Assembly: GCA_938743325.2 (NCBI GenBank)
Contig: OW568893.1
Span: 124,001-188,000, forward strand
From: Pycnococcus provasolii
Taxonomy: Eukaryota > Chlorophyta > Pseudoscourfieldiophyceae > Pseudoscourfieldiales > Pycnococcaceae
Direction of reading: 5' to 3'
DNA: 64,000 bases
The stretch's first letter is position 1; every line of letters begins with the position of its first letter. This document shows, piece by piece, positions 14,233-23,371 of the stretch. The position numbers and the translations under genes are program-made. The notes under the pieces are model-generated. The model saw only the letters and a list, made by a program, of their open reading frames with translations, made no database searches and was not told the origin of the DNA.

Positions 14233-16263
14233 TTGACTTCCTTCAAGACCATGATGTATGCGGGGGGTAGGGGCTTCTTGAGTAAATACATGCGCACCCT
14301 CCTTCTTCTACTTCTCATAGTGGTGGCCGTCGTGCGTCTTACCGTGCTGCACCGCTCGCACTCCAGTATTCAACTCATGTACGCCAACTTAAACAAAAGG
14401 ATGCACTTCGGTGTGAAAAACGTTACAGCTCCGCCGTCCTCGATCCAGGCGCCGGCGCTATACACCACAGCTCCGCCGTCCTCGATCCAGGCGCCGGCGC
14501 TATACACCACAGCTCCGCCGTCTTCGATCCAGGCGCCGGCGCTATACACCACAGCTCCGCCGCCGACGACGACGCCGACGATTCCTCCGCCGACGGCTAT
14601 ACACAGCGCATCTTCATCCACAGCTCACCGCGCTCACAGACAGCACGGCGGCCACAAACCTTCCAGAGGCAGCGCGTCCACATCCACGGCAAACGCACTT
14701 TCGCCGCCGTCACCACCACCACAACCTGAACTGCACGAACTAAGGCGGCAAAAAGGGTGTGGTGGTGCGTGCCAACTTAGGCTGCAGCGCAAAGCGAGCC
14801 GTTCGTCTTCAACTTCCATGGACAACGTCGACAACGCTGACGGACACGACGCGTCCACCTCCACCTCCACCTCCACCTCCGACGATGCTCGGGAAGCATA
14901 CAAGGCGCTGTGGAAGCCGATCGACGCTTCGAACGCGACGGCGGGACCGCTGGGGACGCCTATCGTCGACGACGGAACGTGCGCGTCATCGCCTTGCACG
15001 AACGGCGGCGTGTGCCAAAATGCACGGTGCGTGTGCCCAGCGCTCTTCGAGGGTGAGCGGTGCGAATCGCAAAACAGCAAACTTCCCAACGCATTCTCGG
15101 CAGACCTCGCCATGCACCCGCAGGATCCGGTAGACGTGCTGTTCAACTCGCGTCGCCGCTCGCGCGTCGGAGCCATCCCATACCGCACGAACCCGAAGCT
15201 TGGCACCGGTGAAACGCACAGGTTCTATGCGACGCTCAACGAAGAGACGATGGGACGCGTGCCCACGAGCGATCCGACGAAAGGTCTGCTGTGGCAAAGC
15301 TGCGCGGTGGTTGGTTCGTCAGGCATGCTGCGACGGTACCGACTTGGCAAGGAAATTGACTCGCACTCGCTCGTCATCCGCTTCAACCGCGCGCCCACTC
15401 GGCACTTCGAGAGACATGCTGGACGCATGACACATCTGAGGTTCGTGAACACGAACAATGCGCAGATGCGCGAGCACAGCGGCGAGGTGGTCGTGCAGCA
15501 GATGCAGAGCCAGACGGGATTCTCGCTGTACGTAAGATCACGGCATCTCCGTCCGTACGACAGGCTGTTCGCGTTTGACCCAACGTTCAGTAAGTTTGTC
15601 AGCGCTCAGACGAAGTATCTACCCACTGGAGGCTACTTTGCTGTTTGGTTCGCACTGCTGAAGTGTGCTTCCGTGACCATGTACGGCTTTTACTCGCAGA
15701 GCAATGCTGGAACAGAGAAGTCCGTTCTGGGTGCCGAGCTCCCTCACCACTACTACGACAACGAGAAACCGAGCCATGGCAAGCGTGCGATCCACGACTA
15801 CGCCGGTGAGCGCCAGGCGCTCGGCTTGCTGAACCGCGCACGCCTTGTGACGATCGCCGAGCCGTGCTCGTGGGGCTGCGATAGCAACACTGGTCGTGAG
15901 TGCACGCGCTGCGGTTCAGGCGCACGCTGCGAATGCGGTGGACCGCCGTGGCCGGTAGCCAAGCCTGGATTCTGCCGTCTGCACGCGAGCCGTTCTCGCG
16001 CAACGACAAGCTTTGAGATTGCATCTGAGAGCCTGTGCTTCGTTTCTTGCGGCCAGCACTCGTGTTCGCACACCCCGCACGGATCGGACGCGTGTCCACA
16101 TGCCGTGGAGCGCGCTCTCGGACATGGACGCAAATCCTCGCCTTCCTCTGATCACGAAAGTGCACCCGCCGATGCATCTCCGTCATGGTTTGACGATGCG
16201 TCGGAAACTTCATCTACGTCTGCTTCCGCGTCGCCGTCGTTGAGTGGCGTGTGCGCGACGTAG
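14233..16263 (+). CDS. GT29 sialyltransferase-like glycosyltransferase with EGF domain
   Basis: A 676-residue type II Golgi-type enzyme. A short cytosolic tail is followed by one membrane anchor (TLLLLLLIVVAVVRLTVL, about residues 23-40). Next is a Pro/Ser/Thr stem containing three exact-length copies of a 14-residue repeat (APPSSIQAPALYTT, encoded at 14424-14549). An EGF-like domain lies at about 249-276 (CTNGGVCQNARCVCP). The catalytic part carries sialyl motif L (SCAVVGSSGMLRRYRLG, about 354), motif S (TGGYFAVWFALL, about 464), motif III (HHYYDNEKPSH) and motif VS (HDYAGERQAL). A Cys-rich segment and a Ser-rich tail follow. In plants and algae, GT29 enzymes need not transfer sialic acid, so the donor sugar is unknown. 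The start could also be the Met at 14251. Confidence 0.88.
   Translation: MTSFKTMMYAGGRGFLSKYMRTLLLLLLIVVAVVRLTVLHRSHSSIQLMYANLNKRMHFGVKNVTAPPSSIQAPALYTTAPPSSIQAPALYTTAPPSSIQAPALYTTAPPPTTTPTIPPPTAIHSASSSTAHRAHRQHGGHKPSRGSASTSTANALSPPSPPPQPELHELRRQKGCGGACQLRLQRKASRSSSTSMDNVDNADGHDASTSTSTSTSDDAREAYKALWKPIDASNATAGPLGTPIVDDGTCASSPCTNGGVCQNARCVCPALFEGERCESQNSKLPNAFSADLAMHPQDPVDVLFNSRRRSRVGAIPYRTNPKLGTGETHRFYATLNEETMGRVPTSDPTKGLLWQSCAVVGSSGMLRRYRLGKEIDSHSLVIRFNRAPTRHFERHAGRMTHLRFVNTNNAQMREHSGEVVVQQMQSQTGFSLYVRSRHLRPYDRLFAFDPTFSKFVSAQTKYLPTGGYFAVWFALLKCASVTMYGFYSQSNAGTEKSVLGAELPHHYYDNEKPSHGKRAIHDYAGERQALGLLNRARLVTIAEPCSWGCDSNTGRECTRCGSGARCECGGPPWPVAKPGFCRLHASRSRATTSFEIASESLCFVSCGQHSCSHTPHGSDACPHAVERALGHGRKSSPSSDHESAPADASPSWFDDASETSSTSASASPSLSGVCAT
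14424..14561 (+). repeat. 42-bp in-frame tandem repeat
   Basis: Three copies of 42 bp (starting 14424, 14466 and 14508) plus a 12-bp partial copy. They differ by one base (TCCTCG versus TCTTCG) and encode the stem repeat of the GT29 enzyme. The near-identity implies recent expansion. Confidence 0.9.
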
Positions 16264-16336: not shown

Positions 16337-19300
16337 TCACGCATGCTGCTGGTGCGACAGTAACGCCGCCTCGATAAGTGGCTTCACCACTGCTTCCAAA
16401 TGCATCACAGTTCTGCGTGACTTAGGTCCAACCCAGAAGAGCCTCGGGCAGCGCGAGCAACGCCACACGTCGCGCACCCACACGGGAAGAACGGGAAGCT
16501 GGTCGTCGTTCCCGTCGTTCACTGTGCCACCATCGCTGGTATCCTCCATCTCACCAAGCAGACTATCGTCCATCTCGTCGCCGTCCTCCTCGTTCTGCAC
16601 CACGACGCAACCTTCAGGCGGCTCCCAGCCTTGCACCTCGTTGAATCGGAATTGTGCCTGCCTCTTTTTTAATTCCTGAACCTCCGACGTCGGCAGCTTT
16701 TCGCTGTTAATGCTTGCACCACACTTGTTGCATCGTGTCAGCATGCTCCTCCCAAGAGCCTCGCCAGAAAATATCTTTCTTGGAAATGCACGCACCACTT
16801 CCGCTAGCTGATCCCTCACCTTAGACGCTGTTACGAAAAATACCGTCGGGGGTGCGGGAAGAGGATGGACCATCTCACCACTTGCCATGCAAGCAAGCAG
16901 ACACGCACGTTCGTGATTGTCGGTGAGAAACCGACGATCGCGAGTCAGCACCACTCGACTCTCACGCGCGGCAACTAACCTAAGCCATCGCCTTGAGACA
17001 GTGGACCGCTCATGTGTGCTGACGAGGTGCGCAGATGCGAAATGATCCACTGATGGCATTGCTGCGTCCAAACCCAAGCATCTGAGCCATTTTCCGAGCT
17101 TGCCCAAAGCTGGATCGATAGCAAAGCGCATGGGTGCGACTGACTCAGAAGACGTTGGCATTAATGGCGTTGGCGGAAGCTGCGGTGATGGAAGCGGCGC
17201 ATTCCCCTGAATCACTCCGCCAACGGATATCCCGGCAATCTCACCACTAGCGAATGATACGAGCTCGTCGAAGCTTGCAAACACAGCTTGCTTTTCCGAC
17301 GATCCTGCACCGCTCAGCCAAATGTGTGCATCTTGCAAAAGACTGCTATCTACCACAGATCCGCCCGATGGAGGCGTGCCACAAACAAATCCACCTGCTG
17401 GTACGGACCCGGGCACAAAGCCAAAGATATTCTTGCACTCCTCAGGTGTTGCCAAGCGCAATGCGCCACCACCAAGAGCTGCTTGTGCAGCTCGCATGTC
17501 AACACGACTGCAAGCTGGCAAAATCACCATCGCAGGAATCCAAGGACTTGTTGAACGGCGTTTATCAACGCGTCGCATCATGGCAATGCTCTTCGTCTCC
17601 ACAGCACGTATGCTACCCGGGGAATCTCGGTCTGTGGGTTTGCCCGTATGCAGCTCGATCCAACGGCAGAGGCTCTTTTCATCCGAAAGCAAACTCTTGT
17701 CCACGATCGCGGGGGAAAACGATGATCGCGTTGGGTTTTGCCTTGCCCGCCACGTGTCAAATGCTTTTGCAAACGAGCTCATCGACGACAATTCCTCTGC
17801 ATCGTTGTCCTCAATGATTTCGGAATCTATACTCAAAGTCTGCTGCGATGGCGGTGGTGGTGGTGGTGGTGGTGGCGGCGGCGGCGGCGATGACGAGCGC
17901 CGTGCACCACCCTGACCAACGGAAAACACCAATTTTCTTGCTGATTCGTCACGGCAACCTTCAGGCGCACCGTACGCGTCTTCCATTCGCTCCCAAATCT
18001 CAACCGAAGCTACAGCATCCAGAGCGGCATACGCCAACTGGGCATCCTCAAGAGGTCGTTTCTCCCAGTCAGTCAAACGTTGCGTTTTGTCCAGCGGCTT
18101 TCCTATCACCTCCTCCACCATCCTGCTTAAACTCACGCGGCCGTTGTTGCTTGAATTCGACGAGCCCTGTGCGGTCAACATAAGGCGAAGTGGACTTAAG
18201 TCCAAACACTTTGCAAATGAGAGTAGCGCGCCGTCGAAGGTTGCGCCATATCCTCGTCGAACGCGCCTGAGATCCTCTCCCAGGCCATGGCCAATCAGCA
18301 CGCAAGCATGCCCCTCCCCCTCCTCAGATCCTCCGAAGAGCGCCTTTAGTCCCAACGCAAAGGTCGTGGAGTTGTGCCCTGATCCATCTGCGGCATATGC
18401 TGCGGCAAGGGCGGGCATATCAAAGACAAAAGCCGCATCCTTGACAGCCAGCTGCAGCGTGGCGACGCGGTGCGATCCACCGGGCATGGCCAGAGGTGGA
18501 ATGCCGTCAGAGCCGAGAGGTTGTGCGTCTTCGTCGAGGGCCGCATGCTCACCCTCTCCAGATTGCCAGTTCGTCTCCGGGCGCCACTCTGCATCGGCGC
18601 CTATAACGCAAATGCCATCTGACGACGACGACGGCCCAGCTGCTCTTCGAAGATGCTCAATTGCCCAAATTCCCTCCGACAAGTTTGAGATCATGTATGC
18701 ACCTCCCGAGGCGTCTCTGGAAGTGTCGGGTATCCTGATATCCAATGCGAGATTGTGGTAGTGTCCCTGTCTCGTGGATGCAGATGCACTCGCGATGGCA
18801 CGCAATTGCGCAATGCCGGAGAGATTCTCTGGGTGGTCCACGTCTATCGGGTCAACCTCGGACATATGCGTTGGAATAGCAAGGCCAAGAATTCCGAGAA
18901 ATTCGGCGTCAACCGCTGTTGTACTTCCTTCGCCGATATCGCACAGAAGCAGGCCACGCATAGCACGCATCACGGCAGAAGCCTCGGCATCTGCGGCATC
19001 TTCCGCCTTCACTGGCATTCTGCTCTCTCCATGCCTTGGGAGCAACTTGAGGAGTTTTCGTGCCTCCACGTCGAGCTCCTTTGGCGGCAGCTCCCAATCG
19101 GAAACAAGCCATCCGTATGCGACATCGGCCAAACCACGGCGAACGAGGCATCGACAAGCGGCATCGCCAAGTAGGCGTACGTAGGATTCCCTCGACATCG
19201 TCAGCAAAGGTGGAGGCGTGGGCAGACTGCCGTCGGAGCACTGCTCTCCTGCTATAAGTGACTCACGCGCAGCAATCACCGCCTGCTGAGCCTGCTGCAC

Positions 19301-20404
19301 GTTCTCGAAGGCCGTCAGCCTCTTTGCCCGAGGCCTCGTCGCGACGTTCTTGACATAGATTTTTGCCACTTCCATCTGGCCACGCATCACCATCTTGTCA
19401 ATTGCAATCAAATCATACGCAAGCTGAACGAATGGAGTGGCAACGTGCAGATGCGGCTCTTCGAGCTCGTGCGCCGCGAGTCGTCGACCACATAGATCGC
19501 GCGCGTATTTCGCTTGACGCGTGGCGACAAGCTGCTGCAGCAAATTGATCTGAAAGCGCACCACGTTGGTGCGGAATGAGCCCTCACTTTCATGCAGCGT
19601 CGACCACTCACATGCGAGACATCCTGCATCCACCGCTCCGTTCCGGACAACGTAAGCTGCGAGCTGCTCTGAGAAAATGACGCTGTATTGCATGTGGCAA
19701 GCGAGCGAAGTGCATGCCGCCGTCGCCTTGGCGTGCGCGTAGAGTCCTTTTTCGAGCGCAGCGATGAGTCGTTCGTGTCTCGACGAGTTTGCGACGCCGC
19801 TCTCGACGAATACCGGAGCGGGAACTGCGAGTGCTAGTCTCACGGCGCCTCGGAGCACGGCGAGCGGCACCTTGAGCGCACCATTCTGATCGTCCGATTC
19901 GCATAGCTCATTCACAGCACGTTCGAAGACATCTGTGACAAGCTCGTGCACGTCATTGGCGTGCTTCGACGGATTGTCTAGGTGCTGCCCGAAGAGCAAG
20001 CTCACGGCTGCCGCCAGGCTACTTGCCGCAGAGACAGCCTGCCCAGGTGCGAATGCACTCGTCGTAAGCGCCTCCCGCGCCGCTCCGATGACGTGCCGCA
20101 TCTTCGCATCGGCATTCGCACCCTGTGTCTCGCTCAGCACGACGTCACCCGCGCCCAAGTCACCCGCACGCTTCGCCGCCTCCGCCGCGGCACTTCGAGC
20201 TATGCGCGCAAGTGCCAAAGCTTCACCGCGTGAATCCCCCAAAGACTCAGACGCGTCGTTCACCATACCGTCAACACGAGCGCGAACACGAGCACGAGCA
20301 CGGGCAGCGCTGAGCCGAGTGTGGGTGCCCGGAGACGGCGACTGAGCAGATGCGGCTGCGGGCGGAATCGTGCACGGCGCCACGGGAGAGGGAGAAGGGA
20401 GCAA
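16337..20404 (-). CDS. DEDDy 3'-5' exonuclease / YbaK / Mut7-C RNase fusion protein
   Basis: A 1355-residue intronless protein with four recognisable parts. Residues 1-570: helical region without a known domain. About 600-810: a DEDDy exonuclease with motif I CVIGADAEW, motif II GHGLGEDLRRV and motif III YAALDA. After a run of 13 Pro, about 935-1075 reads as a YbaK/ProX-type aminoacyl-tRNA deacylase (KSIAMMRRVDKRRS, then RLATPEECKNIFGFVPGSVP, then LQDAHIWLSGAG). About 1085-1220 is a Mut7-C RNase domain (DPALGKLGKWLRCLGLDAA, VVLTRDRRFL). The end holds a Zn ribbon made of RCNKCG and WRCSRCPRLFW. Worm and animal Mut-7 proteins pair the exonuclease with Mut7-C. A YbaK unit between them is not something I know, and it suggests action on tRNA 3' ends. 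Location is unknown. Confidence 0.85.
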   Translation of the reverse strand: MLPSPSPVAPCTIPPAAASAQSPSPGTHTRLSAARARARVRARVDGMVNDASESLGDSRGEALALARIARSAAAEAAKRAGDLGAGDVVLSETQGANADAKMRHVIGAAREALTTSAFAPGQAVSAASSLAAAVSLLFGQHLDNPSKHANDVHELVTDVFERAVNELCESDDQNGALKVPLAVLRGAVRLALAVPAPVFVESGVANSSRHERLIAALEKGLYAHAKATAACTSLACHMQYSVIFSEQLAAYVVRNGAVDAGCLACEWSTLHESEGSFRTNVVRFQINLLQQLVATRQAKYARDLCGRRLAAHELEEPHLHVATPFVQLAYDLIAIDKMVMRGQMEVAKIYVKNVATRPRAKRLTAFENVQQAQQAVIAARESLIAGEQCSDGSLPTPPPLLTMSRESYVRLLGDAACRCLVRRGLADVAYGWLVSDWELPPKELDVEARKLLKLLPRHGESRMPVKAEDAADAEASAVMRAMRGLLLCDIGEGSTTAVDAEFLGILGLAIPTHMSEVDPIDVDHPENLSGIAQLRAIASASASTRQGHYHNLALDIRIPDTSRDASGGAYMISNLSEGIWAIEHLRRAAGPSSSSDGICVIGADAEWRPETNWQSGEGEHAALDEDAQPLGSDGIPPLAMPGGSHRVATLQLAVKDAAFVFDMPALAAAYAADGSGHNSTTFALGLKALFGGSEEGEGHACVLIGHGLGEDLRRVRRGYGATFDGALLSFAKCLDLSPLRLMLTAQGSSNSSNNGRVSLSRMVEEVIGKPLDKTQRLTDWEKRPLEDAQLAYAALDAVASVEIWERMEDAYGAPEGCRDESARKLVFSVGQGGARRSSSPPPPPPPPPPPPPSQQTLSIDSEIIEDNDAEELSSMSSFAKAFDTWRARQNPTRSSFSPAIVDKSLLSDEKSLCRWIELHTGKPTDRDSPGSIRAVETKSIAMMRRVDKRRSTSPWIPAMVILPACSRVDMRAAQAALGGGALRLATPEECKNIFGFVPGSVPAGGFVCGTPPSGGSVVDSSLLQDAHIWLSGAGSSEKQAVFASFDELVSFASGEIAGISVGGVIQGNAPLPSPQLPPTPLMPTSSESVAPMRFAIDPALGKLGKWLRCLGLDAAMPSVDHFASAHLVSTHERSTVSRRWLRLVAARESRVVLTRDRRFLTDNHERACLLACMASGEMVHPLPAPPTVFFVTASKVRDQLAEVVRAFPRKIFSGEALGRSMLTRCNKCGASINSEKLPTSEVQELKKRQAQFRFNEVQGWEPPEGCVVVQNEEDGDEMDDSLLGEMEDTSDGGTVNDGNDDQLPVLPVWVRDVWRCSRCPRLFWVGPKSRRTVMHLEAVVKPLIEAALLSHQQHA

Positions 20405-20512: not shown

Positions 20513-23371
20513 TTACTCGACGCGCGCACGCTTGAAGCGCTCCTTCGCGCTCGCGGCGGCATCCAAAACAGCCTGAACGTCGTCGTCGTCGCCGCCGCCG
20601 TCGTCATCGTCGTCGTCGTCAAGGTCGAGGTCAATCTCCTCCGCGTTCTTTGTGGCAGGTGGGGCACGTGGCCGCGCCGCACCACCTGATTTTGCCTGGG
20701 TAGGATCGAGGTAGTATCCCACGCCAGATTTGCCAGTACGGAAAACATACCCCGGACGAGCACCCGCGAACGATGCTGAGGGCATGAAATCGCCGCCGCT
20801 GATCGTATTGCCAACGATGGGCTGCTGCGTGGAAGCCACGAAACCTGGCAGAGCCTCCGTCGCCGCAGCACCACTTGCCGCCGCCGCTGCCGCCGCCGCA
20901 ATCGCGTTTTCCGGGCCAAACGCCGCCGCAACGCTGCGCTTGATACGAAGCATCTCACGAAAGGTAGCCTCGTCGCCATGACGTACCTCAAATTCGCTCC
21001 ACGCCGTCCAGAACGACGTCGCCTTGCCCGGGTCCGCGAGCTGTGCGGCATGCGAATAAATGGCCCGCGTTCGGTCCACCTCGCCTAGACTTAGCTCGAG
21101 AGATGCCCACCTAACACAGAGCGCAAGTGTATCCTCGTCCGGAAGACCCACGCCACTTGCATCGACTCCAAGGTCGCGATTTACGGACCTCTGGTAGACG
21201 TCTCGAGCCTTGTCAATGCCAAACAGAGTGCGTGCACGCTCAGCGTATAGCTCAATGATGCCACGGCGCTCGTCTCTTTTCACACGCGACGAGGCCTTGT
21301 CGTATACGTCCATCGCCCTGCGAGCGAGCCCGTGCTCCTCCTCAAGGCGCGCGAGGTCGACGAAGAACGCACGCGACAAGTCCTGCGGACAGCCGCTCGA
21401 TAAGCATTGATCGTACAGGTCGCGCAGGCGCTCCATCTTGCGTCCCTCGTACCGCTCGTGAAATTTGCTGAGATAGGTTCTCCAGATTTCCACGCAGTTG
21501 GGCCAGTTAAAGAGGCTTACTCCACGCTCGTAGATGCGAAACGCCTCCTCGAAGAACGTCTTCTCCCACAGCAGGAGAGCATAATTGAGCACCGTCTGAG
21601 GCGTCGCGAGCTTGCGCGCGAGTCGATCGTCGTAGGCGGCACGCACGTCATCCAGGCTGTCTGCGAGAGACTCCTCGAGGTCGCAACGCAGATCCCACAG
21701 CCTCTGCGACCTTGCGGCAGCCCCGGCGACGTCGTGGTTCTCCTCTCCGTCGTGATCCATCGCGTCGCCAATCACAACATGCCGAGGCGTCGGAGCCTTT
21801 GTGGCGCGGCGGCTGAGCGATAGCGCATCTTCGTAGCACTTCTGCCTGAGCTCCATCTCAATTCTCTCGCACCACACCGTCGCACAGTCCTCTGCACGTT
21901 TGAATGGCGAACGTGCCGCGCGCTCGAATGTCTCTCGCGCCTTTTTCACGTCACCTCGCTGCTCGTGGAATTGTGCGTACGAGACCCACAGCTCCACTGG
22001 ACGCCCGTCATCTTTGCCTCCAGCTCCCTCGACAACCGTGCTCACCGCCTCGTCGTACGTCGACACCTGGCTGCGAATGTCCCCTTCGTACAACTCGACG
22101 CGCTTTAGCCACTCGGGCACACTGTTGGGATTTTGACGCAGTCTCACACTGGAGACGAGCAGTGGTCGACGTGCCATGAGATGCTCAAGGCGTGCGAGAC
22201 GAAGGTCGAGGTCAGACAGAGCGGACGGCGATTTGGCGGCACGTACGAGCAGGGGGTCGGGTGCTCCGGCGGCTACAGCATCCGTTTCAGTTTGTAGTCT
22301 CTGCTCGTCGTCGTCGTTGTTGTCGACATCCGCCTCCTCCATCTTCGCGCGAAGCACGCTCTCCTCGAATTGCGCGAGTGCATCGAACACGAGGCTAAAG
22401 TCGCGTACGGTGCGCACGCTCTCGAGTGCCTCGTCGTAGACGTCGCGCGCTTGTTCGTACAAGCCTCTTCTGATGTAATAGTCAGCGAGCGCAGTCCACA
22501 GTCGTCCAACATCGGATTGAAAGCGTTCGATGCCGCCGCGGAAGATGGCGTCAACGTTGAGCGCCTGTCTTCCCACAGACGTGGGGTGGCTTGTGATGAG
22601 GTTGCACAGCTCCAGCCACAAGTCGTGTTGGGACTTGCCTAACGACGACGAGTCTTGCTTGTCGAGCACGTTTCCTAGTAAACGAGCCGCTTCGTCGTAC
22701 ACGCCTCGAGACTGGAGCGTGGAGATGTACTCGTCGACTTTGTTGGGTTGCAGCTGCATCGCACGTGAGTACGCGAGAATGAGTGTGCCAACAGGCACGG
22801 AGTCGGCGTGCTTGTGTATGTACGTGAGAAACGGTTCCCAGACTTGCGAATGTAGTGTGATTGGCAGAGCTTGCAGAGCCCGGTTGAGTGTCGTTCTTGC
22901 TTTTTGTATTTGGTGCTGTTCCAGTAGAGTTGCTATGTATTCAGCCCACATGACGGGCATTTTCGGGAGGTTTGTCACCGCACGTTCGTACAGGCTGTTT
23001 AAGGCTTCCACTTCCGGGTCTAGAACCGAATCCAAACCAGACCCCTCTGTCGAGGCACCACCGTGCGAAGTTGACGACAACGACGGAGAAGAGCACACGA
23101 CGGAGAGCGGTGCGCCGTGCCGAAGAGATCGGAGTGCAGCTGTGAATTCCGCGAGAAGCATGCGCCAGAGTTTGTACGATCCGGGCAGGTAAGAGACGGC
23201 GCGGAGGTAGATGTGGCGAGAGCAAGGAAAGGAAACGTGGCGCGCGGCACGTATGTATTCAAGGTAGGAAGCAAGGCTGTACGGGTTTTGGAGCAGAAGG
23301 GACTCCAATGGGGGCGAGAAGAACACACCAATTGGTTGTGTCAGACATGAAGATTCTGTCGTCGTCGCCAT
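20513..23371 (-). CDS. SYF1: Pre-mRNA splicing factor SYF1 (XAB2)
   Basis: 952 residues made almost entirely of HAT (half-a-TPR) repeats. SYF1 is a scaffold of the NineTeen/Prp19 complex in the activated spliceosome. Examples of repeat cores are YNPYSLASYLEYIRAARH near the N-terminus (here NPYSLASYLEYIRA), VWEPFLTYIHKH, LWTALADYYIRRGLYEQARD and NCVEIWRTYLSKFHERY. The C-terminal region AGYVF-type segment (GARPGYVFRTGKSGV) and an Asp-rich stretch close the protein, as in other SYF1 members, which usually run 800-900 residues. The start Met at 23371 precedes a normal SYF1 beginning. It shares a 136-bp divergent promoter with the Lin0512 gene, filled largely by a TTAGGG array. Confidence 0.93.
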   Translation of the reverse strand: MATTTESSCLTQPIGVFFSPPLESLLLQNPYSLASYLEYIRAARHVSFPCSRHIYLRAVSYLPGSYKLWRMLLAEFTAALRSLRHGAPLSVVCSSPSLSSTSHGGASTEGSGLDSVLDPEVEALNSLYERAVTNLPKMPVMWAEYIATLLEQHQIQKARTTLNRALQALPITLHSQVWEPFLTYIHKHADSVPVGTLILAYSRAMQLQPNKVDEYISTLQSRGVYDEAARLLGNVLDKQDSSSLGKSQHDLWLELCNLITSHPTSVGRQALNVDAIFRGGIERFQSDVGRLWTALADYYIRRGLYEQARDVYDEALESVRTVRDFSLVFDALAQFEESVLRAKMEEADVDNNDDDEQRLQTETDAVAAGAPDPLLVRAAKSPSALSDLDLRLARLEHLMARRPLLVSSVRLRQNPNSVPEWLKRVELYEGDIRSQVSTYDEAVSTVVEGAGGKDDGRPVELWVSYAQFHEQRGDVKKARETFERAARSPFKRAEDCATVWCERIEMELRQKCYEDALSLSRRATKAPTPRHVVIGDAMDHDGEENHDVAGAAARSQRLWDLRCDLEESLADSLDDVRAAYDDRLARKLATPQTVLNYALLLWEKTFFEEAFRIYERGVSLFNWPNCVEIWRTYLSKFHERYEGRKMERLRDLYDQCLSSGCPQDLSRAFFVDLARLEEEHGLARRAMDVYDKASSRVKRDERRGIIELYAERARTLFGIDKARDVYQRSVNRDLGVDASGVGLPDEDTLALCVRWASLELSLGEVDRTRAIYSHAAQLADPGKATSFWTAWSEFEVRHGDEATFREMLRIKRSVAAAFGPENAIAAAAAAAASGAAATEALPGFVASTQQPIVGNTISGGDFMPSASFAGARPGYVFRTGKSGVGYYLDPTQAKSGGAARPRAPPATKNAEEIDLDLDDDDDDDGGGDDDDVQAVLDAAASAKERFKRARVE

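Follow-up and report, generated by a model that had tools for sequence, protein, structure and literature searches.

A C-terminal domain of MUT-7-type nucleases, MUT7-C, is described in PMC11347159 as TOPRIM-like in fold, with a zinc finger and only distant kinship to PIN domains. Deletion of this domain reduces both RNA binding and the degradation of RNA by the exonuclease, Drosophila Nibbler has lost it, and the only RNA that C. elegans MUT-7 degrades efficiently in vitro is unstructured (PMC11347159). Members of the INS superfamily (YbaK/ProXp) are aminoacyl-tRNA deacylases and therefore act at the tRNA 3' end, as reported in the accessible portions of PMC11295145 and PMC11286415. According to the former, a review, they are single-domain proteins apart from the INS domain of ProRS; according to the latter, every member characterized relies on a conserved lysine together with a GXXXP loop, and ProRS-ProXp-ala fusions are known in protozoa or protists and in fungi. 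Here, we analyzed a 64,000-nucleotide stretch of the genome of the green alga Pycnococcus provasolii (contig OW568893.1, positions 124,001 to 188,000 of the forward strand; hereafter the window), in which a single gene encodes a DEDDy 3'-5' exonuclease domain, a predicted INS domain and a Mut7-C domain, in this order.

The gene occupies 16337..20404 on the reverse strand, as do all of its features given below. There, an open frame of 1355 codons, the first of them TTG, was found at exactly the position given in an earlier note made from the sequence letters. An ATG first appears in frame at codon 47 (window position 20266), and the protein therefore likely comprises 1309 residues (16337..20266); residues are numbered in the 1355-codon frame, with the ATG as residue 47. 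Our comparisons spanned the alga's own genome, bacterial genomes, viral contigs, PDB and domain libraries. Along the protein, Pfam families followed one another as DNA_pol_A_exo1, tRNA_edit and Mut7-C, all three above their curated cut-offs in the domain search that the note had proposed, which confirmed its claim of three modules in one uninterrupted frame. NCBIfam returned exonuclease families only, all far below their cut-offs, PHROGs returned nothing relevant and Rfam had zero matches in the window. We give a rough probability of 0.42 to the reading that this gene encodes a 3'-5' exoribonuclease of the MUT-7/EXD3 type carrying an INS domain in the stretch that links its exonuclease to MUT7-C, where it would recognize acceptor-like RNA 3' ends. 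Judged by its domains, the INS-containing protein is a variant on a known MUT-7/EXD3-like exoribonuclease.

The frame itself withstood several controls. Two in-frame stops are found within the 100 codons preceding it. In simulated sequences with the dinucleotide make-up of the gene, stops occurred at 0.031 per codon and the longest open run was 314 codons (n = 300 simulated sequences); at this rate, the probability of 1309 open codons is approximately 1e-18, and a chance origin of the 1355-codon frame is excluded. An artefact, with the frame running across two or three separate genes or through a retained intron, would fit a third-position guanine-plus-cytosine content of 0.44-0.53 in codons 801-1200 compared to 0.53-0.66 in codons 1-800, as well as the lack of any orthologue of the whole protein among genome and viral contigs. 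However, besides the low chance of such an open run, the 97-codon and 29-codon linkers contain zero stops in the coding frame, whereas the other two sense frames contain 3 and 4 stops in the former and 2 and 1 in the latter, and the INS sequence is itself in frame and scores in Pfam. Because two separate genes would require an intervening stop, one polypeptide bearing the three modules, as predicted from the DNA alone, is much the simplest reading, and an artefact of this kind is highly improbable.

The DEDDy exonuclease domain covers approximately residues 599-815 (17960..18610; outer limits set by eye). DNA_pol_A_exo1 (PF01612) matched residues 730-808 with an E-value of 7.5e-11 and 42.6 bits (cut-off, 23.6). 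Furthermore, the best PDB match of the isolated domain was 7jw2, an exonuclease mut-7 homolog (6.1e-08), and this nearness supports assignment to the MUT-7/EXD3 type. The three exonuclease motifs claimed in the earlier note supply the D-E, D and Y-D residues of a DEDDy enzyme: DAEW (motif I, D604 and E606, residues 604-607, 18584..18595), GHGLGED (motif II, D711, residues 705-711, 18272..18292) and YAALDA (motif III, Y792 and D796, residues 792-797, 18014..18031). Motif III lies inside the Pfam match and the PDB alignments; motifs I and II were assigned by eye and lie outside the Pfam match, and with them the domain has the catalytic D, E, D, Y and D that the MUT-7/EXD3 family requires.

A six-frame, exon-by-exon search of the alga's own genome (32.3 Mb in 46 contigs) revealed 4 matches to DNA_pol_A_exo1, this gene included. 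One of the others, L005 (C26:36469-36960), lies in an 819-codon frame, is alike in the region of motif III (DWSHRPL...YAALDA) and was the only one of 3 own-genome exonuclease loci compared to match the window exonuclease by phmmer. A match on contig C40 scored slightly above L005 in another comparison, but extends into the proline-rich linker.

The Mut7-C domain spans approximately residues 1089-1340 (16385..17140), as delimited by Pfam, hhalign and, for its outer limits, by eye. Mut7-C (PF01927) matched residues 1092-1243 (4.7e-16, 59.6 bits, cut-off 23.3), and hhalign aligned the segment with four bacterial Mut7-C proteins at 97.5% probability. In the same six-frame search, this was the single Mut7-C match of the genome, and its presence in one protein with the exonuclease also supports the MUT-7/EXD3 assignment. 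Two Cys pairs, CNKC (residues 1225-1228, 16721..16732) and CSRC (residues 1316-1319, 16448..16459), were identified from sequence and alignment and are separated by a largely acidic spacer of 87 residues (16460..16720), compared to 29, 29, 29 and 25 residues in the four bacterial proteins. The terminal Zn ribbon described in the earlier note is thus present as far as its Cys pairs are concerned, but it is no separate module, as CNKC and CSRC form the zinc finger of Mut7-C itself; a MUT7-C with a Cys4 zinc finger downstream of the exonuclease is what the MUT-7/EXD3 family requires. The note had also counted this domain as a second of two RNA-degrading folds. This overstates the case, because MUT7-C is reported as RNA-binding and no nuclease activity of MUT7-C itself is reported in the portion of PMC11347159 at hand.

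The middle segment, described in the note as YbaK/ProX-like, was recognized as such in sequence comparisons. The domain lies at approximately residues 913-1062 (17219..17668), delimited by Pfam, PDB, hhalign and a hidden Markov model (HMM), with outer limits set by eye. Residues 953-1038 matched tRNA_edit (PF04073; 2e-10, 41.3 bits, cut-off 25.5), an HMM built from 35 INS domains scored 39.3 bits over residues 958-1059, and hhalign gave 92% to a 2CX5-like (ProXp-x-like) alignment and 83% to a YbaK-like alignment. The closest solved INS structure by sequence was PDB 2cx5 (TTHA1699; 5.5e-05). The segment therefore has the homology to tRNA_edit/INS domains expected of the superfamily. It is predicted to be an INS (YbaK/ProXp) domain with bacterial ProXp-x as its nearest kin, this nearness being a soft ranking. 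Against five INS groups, which are small, were built from 33 bacterial loci and bear names of our own, it scored 29.9 bits for the 2CX5 kin and 23.2, 19.9, 7.8 and 4.4 bits for the other four; the ranking is soft because a ProXp-x seed served to pick the loci, several of which were found using the window domain as query.

We then considered the two features reported for characterized INS members. The strictly conserved lysine of the superfamily corresponds to K938 (codon at 17591..17593), the probable catalytic residue: in an alignment with relaxed gap costs, its column holds K in 48/48 compared domains and in all 35 of a smaller set. This placing requires a longer hairpin after the lysine in addition to the relaxed gap costs, and the catalytic lysine is thus probably kept, depending on the alignment. 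The counterpart of the GXXXP loop is GSVPA (residues 999-1003, 17396..17410, by alignment). The glycine of this loop is invariant (48/48), and the final position is proline in 43 of the compared domains, valine in 3 and alanine in 2. Because these 5 of 48 tRNA_edit matches also deviate at the final P, GSVPA does not prove that the pocket is inactive. A damaged-pocket reading, initially drawn from a loop proline in 35/35 domains, was dropped once the wider set gave 43/48. Of the 53 loci considered, 18 were missing from the smaller set; the 48-domain set came from the same 53, of which L068, L070, L073, L074 and L077 gave no match and were not counted. Bacterial tRNA_edit matches with V or A in place of the final proline are L036, L037, L041, L044 and L045.

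These observations suggest how a MUT-7/EXD3-type exoribonuclease with an embedded INS domain might work. The 3' end of an RNA would most likely be held by MUT7-C and the INS domain together. The INS domain would recognize an acceptor-like 3' end and may hydrolyze an aminoacyl ester standing in the way of the DEDDy exonuclease, after which the DEDDy site would remove a few unpaired 3' nucleotides. That RNA is the substrate, that the INS domain recognizes its 3' end, that any deacylation takes place and that the steps follow this order is what we infer from the domains.

Several observations weigh against this reading. The ProXp-x ranking is soft for the reasons given above. A search with the window INS domain gave matches in 14 of 190 bacterial genomes of one class at E-values up to 0.01 (best 9.7e-5), suggesting that the domain is a distant relative. 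K938 was 6 columns off in five alignments of few rows with default gap costs, both the Pfam and the HMM matches begin after K938, and the loop is GSVPA instead of the GXXXP expected of the superfamily. AlphaFold models of the INS segment built with few alignment rows reached pLDDT values of only 43.5 and 37.5, too poor to be fit for a fold search. Besides, the genome contains two other tRNA_edit genes and an Argonaute-type gene, and the preference of MUT-7 for unstructured RNA sits poorly with the short 3' overhang of tRNA. Finally, relatives of the whole protein were not recovered: 10 stretches of genome contigs matched the pattern, none of which was confirmed, and no stretch of the viral contigs matched.

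Part of this evidence favors the main rival, in which a MUT-7-type nuclease trims small or unstructured RNA while the INS domain is a spacer or an RNA-binding relic with no deacylase role. Low identity to the compared INS domains (27% at most, and 26% in a wider set) would be expected of such a relic, although it rises to 33% over the C-terminal 97 columns relative to one group in the hhalign comparison, as would the longer hairpin after the lysine, other insertions and the GSVPA loop. The single Piwi-domain match of the genome, the Argonaute-type L079 (C16:104765-105328), makes small-RNA trimming possible, and the alga may therefore have a small-RNA pathway open to a nuclease of the MUT-7 type. 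Conversely, the lysine and the loop glycine are each matched in 48/48 aligned domains, D1019 is matched in 33/35 and the Pfam score is well above its cut-off. This conservation exceeds what would be expected of a neutral relic, and we regard a passive INS domain as rather unlikely.

The earlier note had proposed a machine at the other extreme: mischarged tRNA would first lose its amino acid at the INS domain and would then be trimmed or destroyed by the exonuclease. A DEDDy exonuclease requires a free 3'-OH, which deacylation would provide, and the DEDDy residues are present; the aligned lysine (48/48) and the 5/48 other domains whose GXXXP loop ends in A or V are also consistent with an active deacylase. 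However, the two other tRNA_edit matches among the 3 in the genome, L002 (334-codon frame) and L004 (332-codon frame), carry no second Pfam domain and have loops, GGVTP and GAVVP, that keep the proline; because both are present, general tRNA editing could proceed without this gene. Moreover, MUT-7 efficiently degrades only unstructured RNA, the portion of PMC11347159 at hand reports no RNase activity of Mut7-C, and the word tRNA does not occur in that paper's main text. We therefore consider such coupling doubtful. The preference of MUT-7 for unstructured RNA makes 3'-end trimming likelier than tRNA destruction and weakens the note's suggestion that the protein destroys faulty tRNAs; complete destruction of a folded tRNA without other factors is unlikely.

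One form of this coupling would be 3'-end quality control by one polypeptide. Its INS domain would sample tRNA-like ends, deacylate the wrongly charged ones and hand the freed CCA to the DEDDy exonuclease, thereby tying mischarging to removal of the tRNA 3' end or to turnover. We find this quite doubtful. An INS domain inside an exoribonuclease would be, as far as we know, the first case of aminoacyl-tRNA proofreading physically joined to the trimming of RNA 3' ends. It could also point to a defined substrate for a MUT-7-type protein, and a simple enzyme assay would suffice to probe this link.

A search of open-licence PubMed Central found no description of the combination or order exonuclease-INS-Mut7-C, and among the papers listed none contained both Mut7 and YbaK, which upholds within that literature the earlier view that the architecture is undescribed. 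The protein may also occur in other algae, and it may already be a database entry without a paper. Arabidopsis At5g24340 combines an exonuclease with Mut7-C and is not known to have an INS domain, and no paper was found under this locus name. A prokaryotic origin of the fusion was considered and, within the genomes surveyed, rejected. Mut7-C was found in 17 of 200 bacterial genomes of one phylum (14 over the cut-off), and the 19 matches listed in this survey were all in open frames of 64-292 amino acids; none of the 3 genomes with ProXp-x-like loci had a Mut7-C match. Viral scans with the INS and Mut7-C rows returned 16, 16, 89 and 35 stretches, without a confirmed one.

Ahead of the exonuclease, residues 47-598 (18611..20266) contain no known domain: residues 47-590 gave no Pfam match up to an E-value of 1 and nothing significant in PDB (best E-value, 0.23). 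This region occupies the place of the HEAT-like repeat domain of Nibbler and MUT-7, and no similarity to that domain was seen in Pfam or PDB. A proline-rich and acidic linker (residues 830-868, 17801..17917, from the sequence) follows the exonuclease domain. Upstream of the gene, 20513-23371 on the reverse strand encodes a SYF1-type splicing factor (HAT_Syf1 families, best E-value 1.1e-133). The convergent downstream neighbor (14233-16263, forward strand) encodes a sialyltransferase-like protein of glycosyltransferase family 29 (Glyco_transf_29, 3.6e-33) preceded by an EGF-like stretch (EGF_TEN, 5.3e-06, 26.6 bits against a cut-off of 65). In the genome, 51 chlorophyll a/b-binding matches were found, which together with the SYF1-type neighbor indicate a photosynthetic eukaryote. 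Contig C31 holds two clusters of 6 such matches each (133072-142609 and 360395-366434), and all 12 have an equal score of 92.2 bits and lie on mixed strands, looking like recent local duplications.

Compared to described systems, the protein shares with MUT-7, EXD3 and Nibbler a long N-terminal region, and with MUT-7/EXD3 a DEDDy exonuclease followed by a MUT7-C with a Cys4 zinc finger (PMC11347159, in part). Insertions between the Cys pairs are described there for animal MUT7-C, the long spacer of which resembles that of the window protein, whereas MUT7-C of plants and prokaryotes is characterized in that paper as minimal, unlike the 87-residue spacer of this algal gene. The N-terminal region has no detectable similarity to that of MUT-7/EXD3/Nibbler, and only the window protein has an INS domain between exonuclease and MUT7-C. 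From the deacylase side, L002 and L004 (ProXp-ala-like and MCP3/ProXp-7-like, labels of our own based on motif and size) belong to the same superfamily and the same genome. ProXp-x (2CX5, TTHA1699) has the core motifs and the aligned lysine in common with the window INS domain, but is a single-domain protein with a GGVPP loop, whereas the window domain has GSVPA and a longer hairpin after the lysine and is embedded in a nuclease. Like the INS domain of ProRS and the ProRS-fused ProXp-ala (PMC11286415, in part), it is placed inside or beside an enzyme that acts on RNA; there the partner is a synthetase, whereas here it is a nuclease.

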